A stretch of 22,146 nt of DNA from a virus, in IMG/VR virus record IMGVR_UViG_3300020175_000060, positions 1 through 22,146 of that record; one strand, written 5' to 3'. The translations under genes and the position numbers were made by a program. The notes under the pieces were generated by a model. The model worked only from the letters and a program-made list of their open reading frames with translations. It made no database searches and was not told the origin of the DNA. Positions 1,576 to 14,625 of the stretch are shown piece after piece; the first letter of the stretch is position 1, and every line of letters begins with the position of its first letter.

Positions 1576-2261
1576 TTATCTATAATATAATTTCCCCACA
1601 TTTTGTGAGATTCTTTTGTTGGATGTTTTCTTTCATGAAATGTACCATTATTATTATTTAAATAATAGTACATATCATCCATATCTATCTTTAAGTAATC
1701 TAATCCTAATTGTTCAGTATCTCTACCAAATTTATCAATTTTTGTTTTAGGTTCAGTTACGTTTTCGTATTTATAAAAAGCATTAAAAAAATAATAATCA
1801 ATGCCATTAAGTTCACATATTGAAATCAATGATTGAATATAATTAAATGTTCTAATATATGATGGTATTAATTCATTCTGATGTAATACAAATATGTCCT
1901 CAGTTGTTTTATCTTTATCATTATTTCCCCACTTATCATAACCAACCCACAATCTTTCTTGTTGATACTCACTTCCTGTCCACCATTCAAATCTTGTTGG
2001 TGATGTCCAACCAATTATAAGTTTAAATTCATCAGACTCAACCCAACCACTTTCTTCACTCCAAGTTTTATGAGTTGAAATCCATTGATTTATATCTCTC
2101 ATAGTATTTCTAAAAATATAATCATTAGAAACACCAGCTGATGCATTATTACAATCAATAAAACCTATTTCATCTGCAATTATTTTTGAAAACCTTTCGT
2201 TTTCTTTATTTTCTAATTCTGCTCCCCAAGTTACAGAATCTCCAATAGAATATAATATCAT
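1566..2261 (-). CDS. SGNH/GDSL-type hydrolase family protein
   Basis: This 231-residue protein begins with IGDSVTWGAEL, the SGNH block I with candidate nucleophile S9. NNASAGVSNDYIFRNT follows near residue 40 and resembles block II. The C-terminus has HPTKESHKMWG, with H213 the likely catalytic His. The middle segment IIGWTSPTRFEWW stands where the oxyanion-hole GxND block would be, and the usual Asn is not obvious, so activity is uncertain. There is no signal peptide or membrane segment, which suggests action in the cytoplasm or on the virion. SGNH enzymes are mostly esterases or deacetylases of lipids and glycans; the substrate here is unknown. The start ATG overlaps the primase stop as ATGA, and the end overlaps the recombination nuclease gene, so the three are probably co-transcribed and coupled. 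Its place between two DNA-metabolism genes is odd. Confidence 0.8.
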   Translation of the reverse strand: MILYSIGDSVTWGAELENKENERFSKIIADEIGFIDCNNASAGVSNDYIFRNTMRDINQWISTHKTWSEESGWVESDEFKLIIGWTSPTRFEWWTGSEYQQERLWVGYDKWGNNDKDKTTEDIFVLHQNELIPSYIRTFNYIQSLISICELNGIDYYFFNAFYKYENVTEPKTKIDKFGRDTEQLGLDYLKIDMDDMYYYLNNNNGTFHERKHPTKESHKMWGNYIIDKWL

Positions 2262-3202
2262 AAACCTTTTAATTTTTGTGATATAATATCACCAAATCCT
2301 GTCTTTTTAGATTCTTTTAATTTATTATTTACTTCTGTGAATCCCATATCAGATGCATCTTTATCTGTGGGTTTAATATTTTTTGTAGAAATACCTTGAT
2401 TACTAAATTGCATAGTATAATGTAACGCTTGTTGTTGAGCATCTTCATCTAATAAGATGTTAATGTTTTTTACTCTATTTTTAAATATAGCCTCGTTTAA
2501 TTTAGTAGGAATAAATTTACCCAAAATAGGAATAGAATTTCTTTTAACTGCCATTGCATCAAATACACCTTCTACTAAAGTTATTGGTTCGCTCCAATTT
2601 ATTTGGTTTTCGAACATAATAACATTTTTCGAAACTGGTGGATTCTTGTATTTAAACTTTTCTTCAGAGTGTATAGAACGTGCAATGAAGTAATTAAGTC
2701 TATTATCCAAATCATAGGAAGGAATAATAATACGATTGGAATACATACCAGTATCACAATAACCGATATTATATCTTGTAATATCTTCTTTAGTAATACC
2801 CCTTTCCTCTGCATACTTGAGAGCCTTTTTATAAACAGGTTTTATTTTACCTGTTGGTACTTTTAAAAGTGATTTAAATTCACTTGGTAATCGTAACTCT
2901 ACTCTCTCATCAACAGTATCTTTATTGTAAACTACATAATCATCACCATAGATTTCAAATAACTTTTTCTGTTTACGAGAATCTACATGAAGTCTTTTTA
3001 ATAATCTCTGTATCTTTCTACCTTTTGCATCACAAACCCAACAATGCCAATATTGTGTTTTAATATTAACTTGTAGTTTTTTCTTATGATGATGACAAAA
3101 AGGACAGAAATGTGCCTGTTCATCATTTTTCATAGATGTTCCAGGCCCTAGAACATCGTTTAATATATTAATAACTTCTTGTTTCTCGTGATGTGAGAGC
3201 AT
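2258..3202 (-). CDS. DNA primase, zinc-ribbon plus Toprim
   Basis: This 314-residue DnaG/gp61-type primase makes RNA primers for lagging-strand synthesis with the phage helicase. The N-terminal zinc ribbon has C33, C36, C54 and C57 (CPFC...WHCWVC). A basic linker and core follow, with a YNIGYCDTG...SNRIIIPSYDL segment around residues 144-165 typical of the primase core. The Toprim domain has LVEGVFDAM (E211, G212, D215) and the metal-binding ILLDED pair D252/D254. The length fits compact phage primases that lack the fused helicase of T7 gp4. A host-like promoter lies directly upstream, and the leader is too short for a strong Shine-Dalgarno sequence. The gene heads a tight run primase, SGNH hydrolase, recombination nuclease. 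Family assignment is secure; equivalence to T4 gene 61 is inferred. Confidence 0.92.
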   Translation of the reverse strand: MLSHHEKQEVINILNDVLGPGTSMKNDEQAHFCPFCHHHKKKLQVNIKTQYWHCWVCDAKGRKIQRLLKRLHVDSRKQKKLFEIYGDDYVVYNKDTVDERVELRLPSEFKSLLKVPTGKIKPVYKKALKYAEERGITKEDITRYNIGYCDTGMYSNRIIIPSYDLDNRLNYFIARSIHSEEKFKYKNPPVSKNVIMFENQINWSEPITLVEGVFDAMAVKRNSIPILGKFIPTKLNEAIFKNRVKNINILLDEDAQQQALHYTMQFSNQGISTKNIKPTDKDASDMGFTEVNNKLKESKKTGFGDIISQKLKGL

Positions 3203-3221
3203 AATTACACTTTTAACAATA

Positions 3222-3252
3222 CAAATATACGAAAAATATTTTAATTATCCAA
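3222..3252 (-). promoter_or_regulatory. Putative Bacteroidetes-type promoter of the primase operon
   Basis: On the minus strand, TTG (3252..3250) is followed after 20 bases by TATATTTG (3229..3222). This matches the Bacteroidetes primary-sigma consensus: a TTG near -33 and TAnnTTTG near -7. The -7 box ends 19 bases before the primase ATG, giving a leader of roughly 13-15 bases. The TTG lies in the last codons of the GIY-YIG gene. The match is exact by eye, but the region is AT-rich, so chance is not excluded. Confidence 0.6.
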
Positions 3253-3741
3253 GTCTTTTCTAAAAAACTTTCCTAATAAATTATCATTTAGGGATAAATC
3301 ATCTCCTAATACATCGTGTGCAAATTGTTCTTGTAGTTCATAATAGGTTAAAGCCTTCTTTCCTTTACAGAATCTAAGTATTTCTAACTTTAGTGTATCA
3401 TTGATATCACTTCTTCTATCTTCTTCTAAAGCCAGTGCATTAGAATGAAACCACAACTGTACTGTTGCATTTGATGAACGATAATCTAACCAATTAGATT
3501 CTTTTTCAACCATTTCATATTTCTTCATTCTCTTATCTGTAAGAGCAGCTGTTTCTTTTTTACCAAACTTTCGTTTCCTAATAGAAACTACTTGTTTTTT
3601 ACCAATGTAAAATTCACCTGTAATTCCATTAGTTATTTTGTATATAAAACCAAATGTACCATCTGGCATATCTGATAGTTCTGTTATACTTTTTGAATTA
3701 TATGTCCAACCCATAGTTAAAAATCTTGAAATCATTTTCAT
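3241..3741 (-). CDS. GIY-YIG-family endonuclease
   Basis: This protein of up to 166 residues has the GIY-YIG pair as GFIY (31-34) and YIG (45-47), separated by KITNGITGEF. A basic stretch VSIRKRKFGKK follows, then ESNWLDYRSSN, equivalent to the ESDWxxYxGSS motif of phage relatives. The C-terminal LTYYELQEQF...VLGDDLSLNDNLLGKFF is also typical of a family seen in T4-like phages. No separate DNA-recognition domain is visible, so a self-homing role is not supported; a nuclease for DNA processing or inter-phage competition is possible. Three starts are available: ATG 3741, ATG 3735 (GAAAGG 7 bases before it) and ATG 3714. The first two overlap the sulfotransferase end by about 40 bases. The third gives MGWTYN and has no visible ribosome binding site. 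Confidence 0.82.
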   Translation of the reverse strand: MKMISRFLTMGWTYNSKSITELSDMPDGTFGFIYKITNGITGEFYIGKKQVVSIRKRKFGKKETAALTDKRMKKYEMVEKESNWLDYRSSNATVQLWFHSNALALEEDRRSDINDTLKLEILRFCKGKKALTYYELQEQFAHDVLGDDLSLNDNLLGKFFRKDLDN

Positions 3742-4270
3742 ACCTTTCTTTTATGATATTCTTCATCCAATCTTCAGTATAAAATGCATTGTAATACATT
3801 TCTTGTTTTAAAGTTGGATGTTTATCATAAATTGGATTTTTGTTTAAATGTGGTATTTTTGAATTATGATTTAGTTTATTTAATAATTTTTTTATTTCAT
3901 CTTCATAGTTTTCATATCTTGCTATATATGATACCTGTTTATCTTCAGTTCTACCAGCATTTATATAATAACTTTGAGGAAGTATATCTAAGTGATTTTC
4001 ATTATAAGTTTTTAAAAAAGTTTGAAAATCATACTTAAACTCATTTTTTCGTAATCTATGTAAATAAGCAGAAACCATTCTTGTATATGGATTTCGTACT
4101 ATTGTAAATATAAAAAACTTTGAAACATCATTTAATGCTCTAATAGAATCGTGTACAGCAATAGTTTCTGTTCCATCTATCTTATTAAGAATATTTGTTA
4201 GGGATGTTCCACCAGTTTTTGGTATATGAATGTAAGCCCACTTCTGAGCTCTGTTTAAAAGTAAACCCAA
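3698..4270 (-). CDS. Sulfotransferase, PAPS-dependent family
   Basis: This 190-residue protein carries both signatures of PAPS-dependent sulfotransferases of the carbohydrate (HS2ST/sulfotransferase family 2) type. The 5'-phosphosulfate loop HIPKTGGTSL is at residues 15-24. The 3'-phosphate site is IVRNPYTRMVSAY at 57-69, with R59 and S67. These enzymes move sulfate from PAPS to sugar or other hydroxyl groups. At 190 residues it is short but includes a C-terminal acceptor-side region ending FNYGLDI. The start is TTG at 4270: no in-frame ATG lies between there and the upstream stop region, and the first internal Met (65) falls after the essential P-loop. The gene lies beside tail-appendage genes, and its 3' end overlaps the GIY-YIG gene. 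The acceptor, perhaps a host or virion glycan, is unknown. Confidence 0.85.
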   Translation of the reverse strand: MGLLLNRAQKWAYIHIPKTGGTSLTNILNKIDGTETIAVHDSIRALNDVSKFFIFTIVRNPYTRMVSAYLHRLRKNEFKYDFQTFLKTYNENHLDILPQSYYINAGRTEDKQVSYIARYENYEDEIKKLLNKLNHNSKIPHLNKNPIYDKHPTLKQEMYYNAFYTEDWMKNIIKERYENDFKIFNYGLDI

Positions 4271-4280
4271 GATAGGAAAT

Positions 4281-4463
4281 TTATCGTGATACTGAATCAG
4301 AGTATTTTTTCTGATTTAACTTTCCGCCTCTTGCTTGTCCAAGTGCTTTATCATCTTTGTGAAGTTTGTTTACTTCATCTGCAGATAAAGGTGTTTTATC
4401 TTTTCCTGTATTCGCTAATTTAGCGAATTCTGATTTTTCGTATAATTCTTCTATTGATGCCAT
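4281..4463 (-). CDS. Small hydrophilic protein of unknown function
   Basis: This 60-residue, highly charged, Lys- and Asp/Glu-rich protein has no hydrophobic segment and no family I recognise. The features suggesting a real gene are strong: ATG 4463 is preceded by AAAGGAGA (4478..4471) at a 7-base spacing, and the intergenic TATATTTATAT element lies just before that. It fills the gap between a tail-appendage gene and the sulfotransferase without overlap. The C-terminal third is rich in Gly, Lys and Gln (ARGGKLNQKKYSDSVSR). A small virion or assembly factor is a guess only. Confidence 0.7.
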   Translation of the reverse strand: MASIEELYEKSEFAKLANTGKDKTPLSADEVNKLHKDDKALGQARGGKLNQKKYSDSVSR

Positions 4464-4496: not shown

Positions 4497-5648
4497 TTAA
4501 GTATCAAAACGAATAATGATGCTCATATCATAATCTGGTAAATTTTTAATTGGAGTAGGTAATTTAGCAACGGCTACCATCTCGTTGTTATCATTATATA
4601 ATCCTACTGTTGTTATGTATGGTGTTAAATAAGAACCTGTTGGGTCAGTTTGTCTATGAGTATCATAATCATTCCAACTACCTGTTGTACTTCCATCATA
4701 AGATGAAGTATATGCTGATTTTTTATCTATATCAATTACTTCTGTAATCTTTTTTGTACCACCTGGTATTACGTTATTTATTTTTGTAATTTCAAAATCA
4801 TAAGAACCACTTATATTTACACTAACCGCTGATGGATTTTGCGATGTATTAAACTCTCCAGCATTTGCAGTAACTAAAACTTCTGTTTCGTAAATTGTTT
4901 TTGTTGATTTAAAATCAAGTGTATAATTAATGAAAGAGGTTGCGTTGGTAAGTACAATTAATCCCTCGGAATAAAAAATATTTCCATACTTTACCTCATC
5001 TATATTCAATCCATCGAAATCAAGTGGAACAGATGTTTGTAATGTACCCGAAATTAAATCAATTAATACTATTGTAACTATATCAGTATCTCCACCAAAT
5101 GTTAATGTAGCTAATCCTGTTTCTACATCAAATGAACTAATTGTTCCTGTAAACTCTTCATTGTCAGCATCTTTAATTGTTATTATTTCTTGTTCAAAAT
5201 CTAATAACACTAAGGTGTAAAGAGGGTTAGATGATGTTAAACCACCAGTTGAATTATCTGAAAATGTTATTTCATTATCGTTATCTATTAGTGTTACAGA
5301 ACCTGCTTTTATTTTTTCACCAAATACTGATTGAGGTATTTTTACTATTTGAGCAGATGAACCTAAATTTCTTTCTTCAGATATATTACCAATATTTTTT
5401 ACTTTACCAATTAATGTAAAAGTATTTCCTATATTAGAATAATATTTTGATTTAAGACTTGTATATAAAGGTGATGTATAAATAGTAGAACCATTTACAG
5501 TTACATTATTAGCAGAACCACTATCAAAAGAACCACGAGATTCTTCTTCAGCCGTAATTACTGCGTAATCATCTTGAGTAACTGTCCAAGATTTATGAAC
5601 TTGGAAAGCTCTTTTACTTACATTTGATTTTGGAATTGTTTTTAACAT
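4497..5648 (-). CDS. Virion structural protein, probable tail appendage, paralogue A
   Basis: This 383-residue protein is rich in Ser, Thr, Asn, Ile and Val, with no signal peptide or catalytic motif, and looks like a beta-rich virion protein. Its last 40 or so residues (YITTVGLYNDNNEMVAVAKLPTPI...) closely match the end of the next upstream gene (FITTVGLLNDANETIAVAKTSQPI...). This ending recurs in large structural proteins of T4-like and other big phages. The N-terminus KTIPKSNVSKRAFQVHKSWT and the Ig-like middle do not resemble the paralogue, so the shared part is one C-terminal domain, perhaps a docking or assembly module. ATG 5648 has AGAGGAG (5665..5659) ten bases upstream and its own promoter-like element, and lies after a terminator. 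A fibre or whisker is plausible; the exact role is unknown. Confidence 0.8.
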   Translation of the reverse strand: MLKTIPKSNVSKRAFQVHKSWTVTQDDYAVITAEEESRGSFDSGSANNVTVNGSTIYTSPLYTSLKSKYYSNIGNTFTLIGKVKNIGNISEERNLGSSAQIVKIPQSVFGEKIKAGSVTLIDNDNEITFSDNSTGGLTSSNPLYTLVLLDFEQEIITIKDADNEEFTGTISSFDVETGLATLTFGGDTDIVTIVLIDLISGTLQTSVPLDFDGLNIDEVKYGNIFYSEGLIVLTNATSFINYTLDFKSTKTIYETEVLVTANAGEFNTSQNPSAVSVNISGSYDFEITKINNVIPGGTKKITEVIDIDKKSAYTSSYDGSTTGSWNDYDTHRQTDPTGSYLTPYITTVGLYNDNNEMVAVAKLPTPIKNLPDYDMSIIIRFDT

Positions 5649-5727: not shown

Positions 5728-6939
5728 TTAGAAATCAAGTTTAACTTTTATTAATACTTCTTTATCAAATGATTTAGGAATTGGTTGTGATGTTTTAGCC
5801 ACCGCAATCGTTTCGTTTGCATCATTTAGTAATCCAACAGTTGTAATAAATGTTCTTGGGTCTTTTTCAAAAGTTGATTCTGCAAATGAACCATCTGAAC
5901 CTGTTACGAATGTTGGGTTATTAGAGAAGTTATATTCTCTGTTTGTTGCTCTTACAAAGTAATGCGAAGTAGAAACATTTTCTGTTCTTCTTGCTTGGAA
6001 ATCTCCACCACCTCTAATTGCCTCATGTAATAAGAAATGATTTTGTCCTTCTCTTGTAATTCCTTCATATATACTAGCACCACTATTAGAACCACTATCT
6101 ACTGATGTTCCAATTGTTTGATGAATTGCCGTTGGGTTAAGAACTATGATTCCTTGGTCTGGATAGAATTTACCATATCCTCTACCATTTGAATCAATTA
6201 AAGAATTTATAGTAGCTTCTGATTCAGTACCTAAGTTTAATGAACCACTACCTACATTAAATATTCTTCCAGCCTTACCAACTGAATCTGAAAATTTCTT
6301 TCCACTATTATCAATGAAGTTAAATGTTTGATTAGAACCACTTAATATTACTGACCAGTTTCCTGCATCCATTTTCTCTTTGTAACGGGCACGAGCTACA
6401 TTGATTATATAGATATCATCCGATTCGTGTCCATCTTCTGTTGAACCTGAATAGAATTTAAATTTATCATCTCCTTGGTCTAAAAGTAATTGTTTGTATT
6501 GAGCATAAGTTGCTTTACTTGCCAATGTTGAACTATCATCGTTAGTTAGGGATACTGAACCACTTCCGAATTTATGTCCATAAGCAACTGCATATTGAAC
6601 ATCTCCTGCAGATTCGTTATATACATTTACATAGTAGTTTAAACTTGCGGCTGATTGTGAAGAAGAAGTTACGAAAGTAGATAAACTACCAGTATTACCT
6701 GTCCAAAGACCAGTTGTTACAACTTCTACTTTACCATTTACTTGGTCAAACTCTCCAAATCTTTTATAGATACCATTTGTGATTTGTCCACCACTTGCAC
6801 CTAACTTATCTCCACCAGTTAAATACTGATTTATAATTGTTGTTAATTGTTCTGATGTAAGATTTCCTTGATTAGCATCTAAATAGTTTGCCAATTCTTG
6901 TGATAAATTTACTCCAGCTTGTCCTTGTATTGTTGCCAT
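5728..6939 (-). CDS. Virion structural protein, probable tail appendage, paralogue B
   Basis: This 403-residue protein begins MATIQGQAGVNLSQELANYLD and is rich in Ser, Gly, Thr and Asn. Two segments suggest a defined fold: GRIFNVGSGSLNLGTESEATINSL, and a DQGIIVLNPTAIHQ strand near residue 270. Similar segments occur in marine T4-like structural proteins. The C-terminal 45 or so residues (FITTVGLLNDANETIAVAK...IKVKLDF) match the downstream gene 4497..5648. ATG 6939 has AAAGGAT upstream and starts 16 bases after the 209-residue gene's stop, so the two are co-transcribed. A strong terminator follows. It is probably an abundant virion protein because it sits last before the terminator, but that is inference. 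Confidence 0.82.
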   Translation of the reverse strand: MATIQGQAGVNLSQELANYLDANQGNLTSEQLTTIINQYLTGGDKLGASGGQITNGIYKRFGEFDQVNGKVEVVTTGLWTGNTGSLSTFVTSSSQSAASLNYYVNVYNESAGDVQYAVAYGHKFGSGSVSLTNDDSSTLASKATYAQYKQLLLDQGDDKFKFYSGSTEDGHESDDIYIINVARARYKEKMDAGNWSVILSGSNQTFNFIDNSGKKFSDSVGKAGRIFNVGSGSLNLGTESEATINSLIDSNGRGYGKFYPDQGIIVLNPTAIHQTIGTSVDSGSNSGASIYEGITREGQNHFLLHEAIRGGGDFQARRTENVSTSHYFVRATNREYNFSNNPTFVTGSDGSFAESTFEKDPRTFITTVGLLNDANETIAVAKTSQPIPKSFDKEVLIKVKLDF

Positions 6940-10600: not shown

Positions 10601-12889
10601 TTCATCTTCATTAAGTTGAGTTGAAGAAGTAACAAAGTTTATATCTAAATTATCTAATGAAAATTCAGATGATGAAATAAATTGACCTACTACTTCATTA
10701 GAGGTAACAGAGCCACTCGCTACTAAATCATCTAGTATCTGATAACCAATATCATCTCCAACATCTAAAGTGAAGTTAGGAGTTAAAGGCTTACATTCTT
10801 TTGTTATATCATCTACAATTGTTATTTGGTCAATTATAGGAATGGATTGTATTTTAGAAATCCATAATTTATCATTTCTACTTATTTGACTTGGAAGTGG
10901 TTCATAAAGTTTAAGAACCAATGCCTTTTCTTCATTTATCTTTACGTTTTTATTTCGTTCTTCATCAAATTTAAATTCAGATAAGGTTTCTGTATCAACT
11001 GCATATGTTGCAATTAATTCATTTTTACCATCACCCAAGTGTAAGTAATGAGATAAAAAAGGATTTGTTGGTTCATCAAATATAGTGTTATCTAATACAG
11101 AAACAAATGAGTTTCTTAAATCAGATATTACATTATCTCTCCTAAGTGTTAAATCTCCTTTATCAAATATTATATTTATTTTCTCATGTCTACCAAGTGT
11201 AACAGAATCTCCTTCTAAGTTATATGGTAAAAGTGAAAGTTGTATTTCTTCAATATCTCTATAACCTTTTGATTTAGTAGAAGATGCGTACATTTTCTTA
11301 AGAACATCTTCTACAATAAAGTTTGCTTTAGTAGTTGGTCCAAACTTTCCTAAATATTGATTTTTTTCTATCTTTCCACCAGCATATATTTCAATGTAAT
11401 TTGTATTTACGGATTGCCAACTAATTTCAAATGGAACATTATATCCTTGAAAATCAGCTCCCTTAATTGTATTTGGGAAATTTATAATAGTAATATCAGG
11501 ACCAGGTAAATATTCTTTATTAATAACATTAACATTTATTCTTATCGAATCACCACTACCATTTGATTTTGAAACTGGTTGTAAGTATATTGTATAATTA
11601 CCTACTCCATTATAAAAATCAGATTTTGTTAATAATAAACTACCACTTTTTGATAAACTTCTTGTTGTTTTACCTAAAGTATAAATTACTTCATCTGCAT
11701 TACTACTTCTGTATGGTATCTTTACATCCTCTTTTGATGATATGTTAATTTCTACATTTGTTAAATCAACAACTAGTGATGGTTTAGATGGAGCACTTAT
11801 TACAGTTATTTTAGAAGTTTTAATAGAAACAGATGTTTCTCCGAGCTGAAGTTCAACTCTCTTATCTAAACATTTGTTTGTCTTAGGTGAACGATTAGTT
11901 GGTTCTATTACAGAGTAAGTTATATCATGTGTTGTTTGAGATATACCATTACTAAAAAAATCTACATATGGAATTTCTCCCTTAACACTCGGTTGATATT
12001 TAAGTAGTAAATCATCTTCCTCTAATAGTTCTCCTTTAGCACCCCAAGAAGTTGTATAGATTATATCATTATCGTTAGCTAACTCAGTACTAATTTTAAT
12101 TGAGTATAATTCTTCTGCAGGAGTTTCAATTATTTCTTCACCAGCTTCAAATGTAAATGGTAAATCAACAATGAACGCAAGTCCAAAATTATTTATACTT
12201 TCTATATTTAGTAACTTACCATTTTTTTCTACATAAAAGGTATAGTTAACATAAACCACTTCTCCGAGTATAGGATTTGCTTTTACTAGTTCTTCTTCTA
12301 TTTTATCAAATCCTAGTGGAATGCCATTACCAATTTTTATTTGTTCATCTAATCCAATGACTTCAAAATCATCAAATACAAGTGGTTTTATATCTGAAGC
12401 TGTTGTTCCTTTTGTTGAATAAACTTTGTAAGTATCTTTAGATGTTTTGTTATTTGTCTTTACAGTATATACTCTAGGTGTTAGTAATTGTGGTCCTGAA
12501 AGTATTTCGTAAGTTGGAGTGTTACCTGCTGAATTTGGATTTCCTTCCATACCAGAGGATTCTATACCATTTATACAAATCTTTGCATTTTTTTCAGTAG
12601 AAGAAATATTTACTCTTAATGCCTGATAGTTTGCACCATAGGCCGTTTTTAGAAAATCATATGATTCTAATCCTGGTGTAGATATTACACCTGATGTAGA
12701 AACTTTAGTTCCATCTTTAGTTGTAGTAACAGGACCTTGAGCTTTTCCCGAACTTATTAGTGCTCTATCAGATGTGCCTCCACCAGATACAATTGGAATA
12801 CCTTTGTTTTCAACAACTTCATCGGTAAATCCCTTATCAGTAGAAATTCCCCTAACACGCTTTCTTCCATATGTGTTTTTCTCTGCCAT
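7664..12889 (-). CDS. Giant baseplate/tail protein: Ig-like, tail-protein-I-like and LamG segments
   Basis: This 1741-residue mosaic has no signal peptide. Residues 1 to about 900 form a beta-rich chain with several Ig-like repeats. Residues about 930-1055 (FDVIYSHIKASSQ...WRRILNNLPYLLKTKGTKRAIHAAMSCYGVP) resemble the tail protein I/gpI-like element, in which a helical segment ending in KGTxxAIxxxxxxYGVP docks onto gp6/gpJ wedges. Residues about 1060-1250 form a LamG/concanavalin-like sandwich (YTQIVVSRESGS..., LYIGGNTLTGSLDEFRLWTSPLS). After that comes a helical block ending LIPSRAKTISGLLIEPHILERSK, then a Ser/Asp-rich beta tail. It starts in a TAATG overlap with the gene before it. Its place downstream of gp6 is that of T4 gp7, so it may be the wedge-fibre connector of this phage, with a glycan-binding module added. 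Domain limits are estimates. Confidence 0.85.
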   Translation of the reverse strand: MAEKNTYGRKRVRGISTDKGFTDEVVENKGIPIVSGGGTSDRALISSGKAQGPVTTTKDGTKVSTSGVISTPGLESYDFLKTAYGANYQALRVNISSTEKNAKICINGIESSGMEGNPNSAGNTPTYEILSGPQLLTPRVYTVKTNNKTSKDTYKVYSTKGTTASDIKPLVFDDFEVIGLDEQIKIGNGIPLGFDKIEEELVKANPILGEVVYVNYTFYVEKNGKLLNIESINNFGLAFIVDLPFTFEAGEEIIETPAEELYSIKISTELANDNDIIYTTSWGAKGELLEEDDLLLKYQPSVKGEIPYVDFFSNGISQTTHDITYSVIEPTNRSPKTNKCLDKRVELQLGETSVSIKTSKITVISAPSKPSLVVDLTNVEINISSKEDVKIPYRSSNADEVIYTLGKTTRSLSKSGSLLLTKSDFYNGVGNYTIYLQPVSKSNGSGDSIRINVNVINKEYLPGPDITIINFPNTIKGADFQGYNVPFEISWQSVNTNYIEIYAGGKIEKNQYLGKFGPTTKANFIVEDVLKKMYASSTKSKGYRDIEEIQLSLLPYNLEGDSVTLGRHEKINIIFDKGDLTLRRDNVISDLRNSFVSVLDNTIFDEPTNPFLSHYLHLGDGKNELIATYAVDTETLSEFKFDEERNKNVKINEEKALVLKLYEPLPSQISRNDKLWISKIQSIPIIDQITIVDDITKECKPLTPNFTLDVGDDIGYQILDDLVASGSVTSNEVVGQFISSSEFSLDNLDINFVTSSTQLNEDESGTYVESNENYEIDWKGFVKYSSAKERVANFFYKVQLIESYETKYNGLVSGSLIDFGSGTSTQITGSVRGSIAIQNESKRTLGKINNLKKGFDSFEKFLYTSSSIDGITYPGAGGNELSSSSDVSSWYNSLYENASTYDTTNSSRFVNNLPQHLQDDNNSSDFILFFDMIGQHFDVIYSHIKASSQSKKSEHKFERGINSELIYHMLESLGFDADMGVKSQLLWEYAFGKNSDGTQASEMSGKDRQQEIWRRILNNLPYLLKTKGTKRAIHAAMSCYGVPASLLTIMEFGGPQDVSSESATSDFTFEDRTSSINISGSSSIIVPWKEYSSTFPNAVEVRVNTNQQQDQQIISASNWSLDIIKNTGSLASVKLTVGEESASTAVTPLFNEEYTQIVVSRESGSTSDNFNLYVKEGFQGRIRNEVSTILTTTTKAWDSGSELYIGGNTLTGSLDEFRLWTSPLSESVVTNHTLLPDAIDGNHVSSSTDDLILRLDFEYPKDRNADTEIKNVSVINTYEPFVTASNFLSVSDYPYQYQPYERTVTAKVPQTGFSFGNKVRFETQTLESNLNYRSRATKKSYDQSPIDSNKLGLFFSPIKEINMDIMKSLGSFSIDDYIGDPSDDYKDSYTKLKNLRNYYFDRYNLNFQEYIQLVRYIDKSLFTTLESLIPSRAKTISGLLIEPHILERSKLELKPTTAENNQYSSEVNTQEDISITSDNHMILASVTSSQEVSLVGNTNTFNAEVTASDDVIVTSSYDVYESEISASDDINQSGFITVNSGSDMGGISISIDAQFTGSVQGAYDSTAYQQIGMGAESLSRLGFGLYGSGSHSIRTRLDKNNNFVKDRVKVFLLKESYLEDVPQNINSSDESLGREFVSITKFKQIVNILPFTGSDGLETTDPVVAGNIVQVTPLDGNFETHYSNVGDLTSGLENSFFKGSSQTSKTTLDGGSPIVTFTTNPNTLRVSDSGRGSGEPILEVD

Positions 12890-14625
12890 TATCTAAAAAT
12901 CCTTGTATCTATTAGTATTTCTTCTGATGTAACTTCTCCATTTGGTCCTGTACCATATACAGTTGTAAGTTCTTGTCCACCCTCAACTGAATCATATTTT
13001 ATATCAAGATTAGAACCTCCACCACCAATCGGAATATCGGATGCACCACAATCTCCTAGTTCAACTATTTTTATATTTTTACCAAGGAATCCTAGCGGTG
13101 GTACAACCGAATCTTTCTGTGCACAAAATTGAATTGAATCACCTGGTCCCATTTCCTCACTTATCTCTAATCTATCACTATCGTTCATGTATGATACCTG
13201 TACACGATTCACTTGACCTAGTCCTTTATAATCATCTTGTATAAATAAATTTGTTACTATATATTGTTTATAAATATTTTCAATTGGTCTTACTTTTGCA
13301 TATTCTCGAATATCTCCATCAAATGTTATACTATCTTTTTGAGCTCTTATTTTTATTGAGTCATATTCTACTCCAACTTTAGATTGAGATACTCCATTTT
13401 CATCTATATAATTAATAGTACCTTCAAATGACCAAACATAATATATTTTATTAACACTTGATATATCTTCATATTTACAAGAACCATCATCTATTGTAGC
13501 CAATGGATTGTAGTTTAAAGAAGTTGGGTCTGTACATCCTGATATTGATTCGTATCTACATGAACCATCATTTATATTTGCATTTGGATTGTAGTTTAAA
13601 GAAGTTGGGTCTGTACATCCATACACATCTCCTATTATTTCATCAGGTTCAGTTGTATCATATATTGATTCTGATGTTGTTGTTTTTAAAATAGTTTTAA
13701 GTTTATCAATTGTTATTTGTTGTTCCTTTGTTAGAATATTATTTTGTTGAACATCTCTTTTAGGTAAATAAAAATCAATACAAGAAATTATACTCTGCTC
13801 AATATCTCTTTGTAATTCTGATATTGATAAAGTAATACAACTTGTTTCATCTTTAATTGGTTTACCATAATTTATATCTGATATTTTCCAATTTCTGTTT
13901 TGTGAATAGTAAGTCATTGATTCAATAACTTTACTTCTAACTCTATTGATGAATACTTCAAAATTTTCTATTTTAAATTCTTTTTGAATTAACTTAATAT
14001 AGTTTTCACCATCAGTAATTTTTCCCTTTATACTTTTAAAATTAGAAAATATTTTTTCAAAATCTAAATTATTAACATAATCGGTAATATAATAAATTAC
14101 ATCATCTCTAAATGATTGATTATCTACAAAGTTTGAATATCTTTTTTCTAAATCTGTATTTAATTTAGTTGAACGATTTGGTAATATTCTTATTTCTGTT
14201 CGTGATGGTGATATTTCATGTATCCATAAATTGTTTCCATCTAAAGAATCTACTCCAGCTCTCCTATTTAATAAGGTTACTTGAGTTTTAAAAATACCAT
14301 TAGAATATCCCGCCTCTCTTACAAGTTTTTCTATATCAACTATAAATTCAGAAGTTCCATTCTTTTTGGTAGTTTCTAAACTTTCTGTTAGAATAAAGTA
14401 ATCTTTTATATTTACATCATCTATACTAATGTATCTTGATAATTTTCCATCATCTCCTTGAGGTAGTTGGTTATCATTTGAATCATATAATATAAATTCA
14501 ATCATATCAGAACACCCTAGTCCAAAGTTAGATTTAGATATTTCCTTTTCAAATATCTTTCTATCCTCAGTTTCTACCAAGTATCCTTTTCTATCAATTA
14601 TATTTTTAAAATCCTGTATTGCCAT
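12889..14625 (-). CDS. Baseplate-region structural protein with two GCTDP repeats
   Basis: This 578-residue protein has an N-terminal region (1 to about 310) with LWIHEISPSRTEIRILP at about residues 135-151, a motif I associate with marine phage structural proteins but cannot name, followed by Lys/Glu-rich helices. Residues 336-389 are two 27-residue repeats, GCTDPTSLNYNPNANINDGSC and GCTDPTSLNYNPLATIDDGSC, each with two Cys and an Asp-rich DDGSC end. Such repeats abound in secreted proteins of marine Bacteroidetes and may bind calcium or form a disulfide-stapled stalk. The C-terminal part (about 395-578) is beta-rich, with a Gly-rich IPIGGGGSNLD near the end. The gene overlaps its neighbours at both ends by TAATG. 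It is likely a tail or baseplate component; an adhesive role for the repeats is inference. Confidence 0.8.
   Translation of the reverse strand: MAIQDFKNIIDRKGYLVETEDRKIFEKEISKSNFGLGCSDMIEFILYDSNDNQLPQGDDGKLSRYISIDDVNIKDYFILTESLETTKKNGTSEFIVDIEKLVREAGYSNGIFKTQVTLLNRRAGVDSLDGNNLWIHEISPSRTEIRILPNRSTKLNTDLEKRYSNFVDNQSFRDDVIYYITDYVNNLDFEKIFSNFKSIKGKITDGENYIKLIQKEFKIENFEVFINRVRSKVIESMTYYSQNRNWKISDINYGKPIKDETSCITLSISELQRDIEQSIISCIDFYLPKRDVQQNNILTKEQQITIDKLKTILKTTTSESIYDTTEPDEIIGDVYGCTDPTSLNYNPNANINDGSCRYESISGCTDPTSLNYNPLATIDDGSCKYEDISSVNKIYYVWSFEGTINYIDENGVSQSKVGVEYDSIKIRAQKDSITFDGDIREYAKVRPIENIYKQYIVTNLFIQDDYKGLGQVNRVQVSYMNDSDRLEISEEMGPGDSIQFCAQKDSVVPPLGFLGKNIKIVELGDCGASDIPIGGGGSNLDIKYDSVEGGQELTTVYGTGPNGEVTSEEILIDTRIFR
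13504..13620 (-). repeat. Tandem 81-base coding repeat (GCTDP units)
   Basis: A 36-base sequence is identical at 13504-13539 and 13585-13620, with an 81-base (27-codon) period and similar flanks. It encodes the GCTDPTSLNYNP core of each unit. Identity at silent positions suggests a recent duplication or gene conversion. Confidence 0.95.

Follow-up and report, generated by a model that had tools for sequence, protein, structure and literature searches.

In many members of a clade of T4-like phages, with contigs of up to 288,673 bases, a sulfotransferase gene occupies a single position next to the tail genes, and this suggests a part for the enzyme in recognising or altering the host surface. 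The gene studied here, ST (positions 3698–4270, minus strand; 190 aa; TTG start), was characterized by Pfam, PHROGs, a predicted model, structure comparison and alignment. It lies in a 22,146-base window, the whole stretch of DNA analysed, which is a virus record with a T4-like block encoding gp25- and gp6-like baseplate proteins, a DnaG-type primase and an SbcCD/gp46-47-like protein. Phage sulfotransferases are already known; what is new is the fixed locus, the single branch on which its enzymes fall, the empty sites and the link to the tail. We did not find the ST locus described in the open-access literature, and it may still be in print.

Identity, donor site and predicted fold

ST matches PF03567 (Sulfotransfer_2) at 60.5 bits against a cut-off of 22 (E = 3.6e-16) and phrog_3347, 'Galactose-3-O-sulfotransferase' (E = 4.4e-14); these two matches show that the open reading frame is not due to chance and bear out the sulfotransferase identity proposed in an earlier note on this DNA. 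NCBIfam gave no match for ST, phmmer found none among PDB sequences, and a profile search of the latter was weak (best E = 0.0079). The proposed TTG start also stands: the open reading frame occupies exactly 3698–4270 on the minus strand, and the start is credible because TTG occurs at the aligned start in 52 of 66 distinct copies (GTG in 9, ATG in 1 and other codons in 4).

The motifs for binding the sulfate donor PAPS, said earlier to be intact, are present as the P-loop HIPKTGGTS (residues 15–23) and as R59 and S67; we take H15–G21 to be the 5′-phosphosulfate loop and R59/S67 the 3′-phosphate site. Across all 69 distinct full-length relatives from the same locus, H15, P17, K18, T19, G21, H40 and R59 are invariant, as are P61, R64, S67, Q99, E120, N143, N145 and D180. 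Outside this set, 63 of the 69 relatives retain H71 and H141, and H151 varies in a 25-row alignment. In HS2ST, His142 is described as the catalytic base, the H142A variant being less than 1% active (PMC6094399). Lying between the donor loop and the 3′-phosphate site, H40 is, from its place in the sequence, the likely base of ST and putative counterpart of that histidine.

An AlphaFold2 model of ST, whose alignment input comprised 25 of the 27 distinct ST open reading frames, reached a pLDDT of 86.3 and a pTM of 0.85. The comparison with HS2ST-like enzymes that had been suggested as a check came out in their favour: VIA-align placed chicken HS2ST at the top (Z = 11.2 over 161 aligned residues, rmsd 3.2, about 20% identity), HS6ST third (Z = 10.3) and SULT enzymes at 10.2 and below, scores so close that the three are near-ties as nearest fold. 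Foldseek found no match in the PDB at E up to 0.001 and 24 matches among viral models at the same threshold, including proteins of Ralstonia phage phiRSL1 and of cyanophages ACG-2014f and P-SSM7, as well as gp5.1 of Roseophage SIO1 (TM 0.73). The predicted fold is that of a sulfotransferase, nearest to polysaccharide enzymes and too close to the others for a subfamily claim. Loss of the catalytic base or PAPS site on modelling, which the earlier note had named as evidence against the enzyme, was not seen: the model is of high confidence and no donor-site residue is missing. ST is very probably an active sulfotransferase.

A fixed site beside the tail genes

As had been proposed from the window, ST lies between structural and replication genes. 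On one side are tailB (5728–6939) and tailA (4497–5648), putative tail appendage proteins that are named by position, have no Pfam or PHROGs match and are alike in their C-terminal stretches, followed by a small 60-aa open reading frame (4281–4463) that ends 10 bases upstream of ST and is kept also in phages without ST. On the other side are a SegE-like GIY-YIG gene (3241–3741; PF19835, E = 2.2e-18), whose first 44 bases overlap the end of ST, and a DnaG-type primase (2258–3202; phrog_47, E = 2.3e-50) that begins the replication block with the gp46-47-like gene; all five neighbours are on the minus strand. The appendage label of tailA rests on its place and on a relative, Flavobacterium phage immuto, because the tailA model (pLDDT 79.6, pTM 0.60) gave no informative match in the PDB (best Z = 5.3). 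In immuto, the interval from the tailA homologue to the GIY-YIG gene contains annotated tail fibre and spike genes. tailB was found in none of 395 Bacteroidota genomes, a count that is uninformative as a host link without a positive control.

The small open reading frame, which matches nothing in Pfam, PHROGs or named phages, occupies this place with or without ST and has a conserved, RGGKL...KKYSDS-like C-terminus. Elsewhere in the window, a tail-cluster protein (12889–14625) contains a GCTDPTSLNYNP..DGSC motif twice, in nearly identical form, a repeat type known from Bacteroidota proteins. The slot between the primase and the gp46/47-like gene (1566–2261) differs in content among relatives, holding DUF6071/SGNH-like, GDSL-like or 2OG-Fe oxygenase-like genes, or open reading frames of 360–420 aa without a Pfam match.

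None of the 66 distinct ST copies has AGGA, GGAG or GAGG upstream. Copies preceded by such a motif number 43 of 49 for tailA, 47 of 50 for tailB, 30 of 46 for the small open reading frame, 16 of 48 for the GIY-YIG gene and 0 of 48 for the primase. We infer that translation of ST is probably weak or coupled to that of the small open reading frame, which would suit an enzyme.

Whether related phages keep the gene in this place had been raised as a check, and they do, at a fixed site in a T4-like clade. Loci were scanned from four anchors (the GIY-YIG gene, ST, the primase and tailB; best 80 loci each) and their genes labelled by profile; the anchor groups share contigs and so are not independent. 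ST lies between the tail genes and the GIY-YIG gene or primase in 38 of the 44 first and GIY-YIG-anchored loci (absent from 1, 5 incomplete). It is present in 44 of 82 in the ST-anchored group, which includes two cultured phages fetched by accession (36 incomplete; the 2 rows lacking it are those cultured phages), and in 72 of the best 80 tailB-anchored loci (absent from 1, 7 incomplete). Among the best primase-anchored loci it is present in 34 of 79, with 10 incomplete, and absent at the site in 35, so the tail works without it. Loci with ST run tailB–tailA–small open reading frame–ST–GIY-YIG–primase, sometimes with an extra open reading frame interposed; in those without it, the GIY-YIG gene mostly follows the small open reading frame directly, leaving an empty site. 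Each of 25 ST-positive records searched has one PF03567 match, and neither immuto nor Microcystis phage Mel-JY01 has any.

A roving cargo gene, or moron, with scattered places was considered and dropped: ST is at one fixed place wherever it is present, the limit to this constancy being its absence from some sister phages. A PF03567 protein of 229 aa occurs elsewhere in 1 of 11 ST-negative records (L453, 1432–2121, on the contig of L231), within a clade that has lost ST. Four other viral contigs (L097, L105, L121 and L123) have at least two sulfotransferase-like open reading frames close together, unlike the single fixed ST.

A quick backbone tree of 77 distinct rows joining primase and tailB (50 with ST and 27 without, including two cultured outgroups; the ST-negative loci L249 and L352 failed the filters and were left off) requires at least four changes in ST presence. 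The simplest story is one gain followed by losses in a 19-row clade, a 5-row clade and L017, on a count that does not distinguish gains from losses. A middle stretch of tailA is missing too in the 19-row clade (276–315 aa, against 358–450 in ST-positive rows), but the 5-row clade and L017, which also lack ST, keep a long tailA. In a quick tree of same-locus ST with the best-scoring other sulfotransferases from viruses (22) and bacteria (26), a split with support 99 places 19 rows on one side and 48 on the other; all but one of those 22 viral rows and all 26 bacterial rows fall off the ST branch, which includes a subclade 28–32% identical to the ST of the window. ST is under purifying selection: dN/dS is 0.06–0.28 for 17 of the 18 close pairs, and the remaining pair has a dN of 0. 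The other finding named beforehand as speaking against the enzyme, absence from all close relatives together with decayed copies, did not materialize: relatives keep ST, and each of 196 ST open reading frames (74 distinct) is at least 175 aa long unless it lies at a contig edge.

ST travels with the tail module. Over 46 loci, ST distances correlate with those of tailA at 0.86, tailB at 0.76 and a 209-aa tail-cluster gene at 0.63, compared with 0.59 for the primase, 0.48 for the small open reading frame and 0.44 for the overlapping GIY-YIG gene. Partial correlations were computed on 26 loci in which two additional control genes were present (17 of the 46 lacked one and 3 near-identical loci were dropped) and repeated on 24 with the deep subclade left out. 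There they are 0.64 for tailA given three genes and 0.54–0.56 given six, against 0.28–0.29 for the primase, 0.27–0.33 for the small open reading frame and 0.07–0.10 for the GIY-YIG gene; together with the 46-locus analysis, the ranges are 0.54–0.69 for tailA and 0.07–0.15 for the GIY-YIG gene. Functional coupling of ST to tailA is plausible; synonymous distances of the two genes run roughly parallel, so linkage alone could give their correlation, and tailA correlates with another tail gene at 0.91, above its 0.86 with ST.

The GIY-YIG gene of the window (3241–3741) has a synonymous distance of 0.26 between loci L061 and L063, against 0.03–0.06 in four surrounding genes, and seems to be exchanged on its own. 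A recombination boundary at its junction with ST was for that reason dropped as proof of a tail–ST unit.

Candidate acceptors and roles

The earlier note had put forward superinfection exclusion through sulfated host glycans, sulfation of virion glycans, and a conceivable part in mimicry or masking. The fixed place beside tail genes makes a role in adsorption likelier than one in general metabolism and is compatible with host surface and virion alike; ST probably belongs to an adsorption module. By eye, no signal or membrane segment is seen in ST, which should therefore work in the cytosol, the site of PAPS synthesis, where the acceptors would be envelope glycan precursors or phage proteins. 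In a distant 484-kb phage, LR756508 (L367, 2061–14971), two PF03567 proteins and a third open reading frame with like motifs and no Pfam match share an island with a GT10 fucosyltransferase, a GT25 protein, an NAD-dependent epimerase and a cytidylyltransferase-like protein, and this company of glycan genes favours glycan acceptors.

Our preferred reading, held at a little under even confidence, is that ST is an active, cytosolic, PAPS-dependent enzyme acting on an adsorption-linked glycan, of the host envelope first and of the virion second. ST would draw on host PAPS in the cytosol and sulfate a host-envelope glycan, namely an LPS or capsule precursor that faces the cytosol. If this glycan is the receptor recognised by the phage's own tail, the receptor would be changed late in infection, so that progeny would not re-adsorb or a second phage would be kept out. 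A host-envelope glycan has close to an even chance of being the acceptor; the virion is a possible, less probable one.

A phage gene for PAPS supply linked to ST was considered and demoted. An APS-kinase-like protein occurs in 4 of 10 ST-positive records at 53–73 bits, below the NCBIfam cut-offs; in a comparison of 61 Bacteroidota genomes, the 21 strongest APS kinase matches scored 137–233 bits and a second, partial class 51–56. None of 12 ST-negative records has the gene, an absence that tells little because the records are fragments and the gene lies more than 80 kb from ST where it occurs. PF03567 is absent from 14 of 16 other large phage records that carry the APS-kinase-like gene. Four ST-positive phages share the cluster in question (L369, 6959–10724; also L370, L371 and L372), in which an APS-kinase-like and a small nucleotidyltransferase-like gene are followed by a DUF2061-like open reading frame and a long one that is weakly arginine deiminase-like, labels that come from Pfam and NCBIfam runs on part of its open reading frames. 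DUF2061 occurs in 2 of the 61 Bacteroidota genomes, never on the APS kinase contig.

The strongest rival, itself unlikely, is that ST modifies the phage's own tail appendage, on protein tyrosine or a protein-linked glycan, so that the added charge joins in receptor binding. ST adjoins the tail genes and its divergence follows that of tailA, as this predicts, and yet the 5-row clade and L017 have full-length tailA without ST. We know of no sulfated phage virion. More doubtful is a dedicated virion-modifying enzyme that makes a sulfated tail tip part of host recognition across a whole clade of large phages; if true, it would to our knowledge give the first sulfated phage virion.

It is improbable that ST is an auxiliary metabolic enzyme that sulfates a host small molecule and is unconnected with adsorption. 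SULT small-molecule enzymes come within about 1 Z of HS2ST in the structure comparison, and phage sulfotransferases appear as auxiliary metabolic genes in one listing (PMC8290583); against this, ST is fixed at the tail module, retained through deep divergence, and its Pfam family is PF03567. Least credible, and rejected, is a RaxX/RaxST-like pair in which ST sulfates the C-terminal tyrosine of its neighbour: that neighbour is 60 aa long, as the RaxX precursor is reported to be (PMC6637879), lies directly before ST and has a conserved tyrosine, but the tyrosine in its C-terminal segment is kept in 25 of 25 ST-negative rows with the gene, so the two are not co-dependent.

Comparison with known systems

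ST resembles the heparan sulfate 2-O- and 6-O-sulfotransferases of PF03567 in its Pfam match, its donor-site motifs and its nearest solved folds, and differs in having only 190 aa and in being apparently cytosolic. With RaxST/RaxX of Xanthomonas it shares the arrangement of a sulfotransferase gene adjoining the gene for a 60-residue peptide with a tyrosine, whereas the phage keeps its small gene and tyrosine without ST.

Other phage sulfotransferases (phrog_3347; ACG-2014f, P-SSM7, phiRSL1 and SIO1 gp5.1) are predicted to adopt the same fold. The gene for SIO1 gp5.1 is close to that phage's tail fibre gene; the protein has no Pfam match, and its motifs were read by eye. All but one of the best 22 other viral sulfotransferases fall off the ST branch, in a tree built without ACG-2014f, P-SSM7, phiRSL1 and SIO1. 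Phage sulfotransferase genes have been noted before, in an account that calls their function unclear (PMC10580990). The present clade lends itself to testing, with a single gene at a single site, natural relatives without ST whose site is otherwise similar, and tailA as candidate partner.

Finally, a surface-modifying enzyme with a role in adsorption would fit the place of ST, as in phage receptor conversion and exclusion. Known cases of such enzymes act by acetylation or glucosylation and come mostly from temperate phages, and we know of none that uses sulfation. Should ST change the receptor or the tail tip by sulfation, sulfate chemistry would be added to phage–host recognition.
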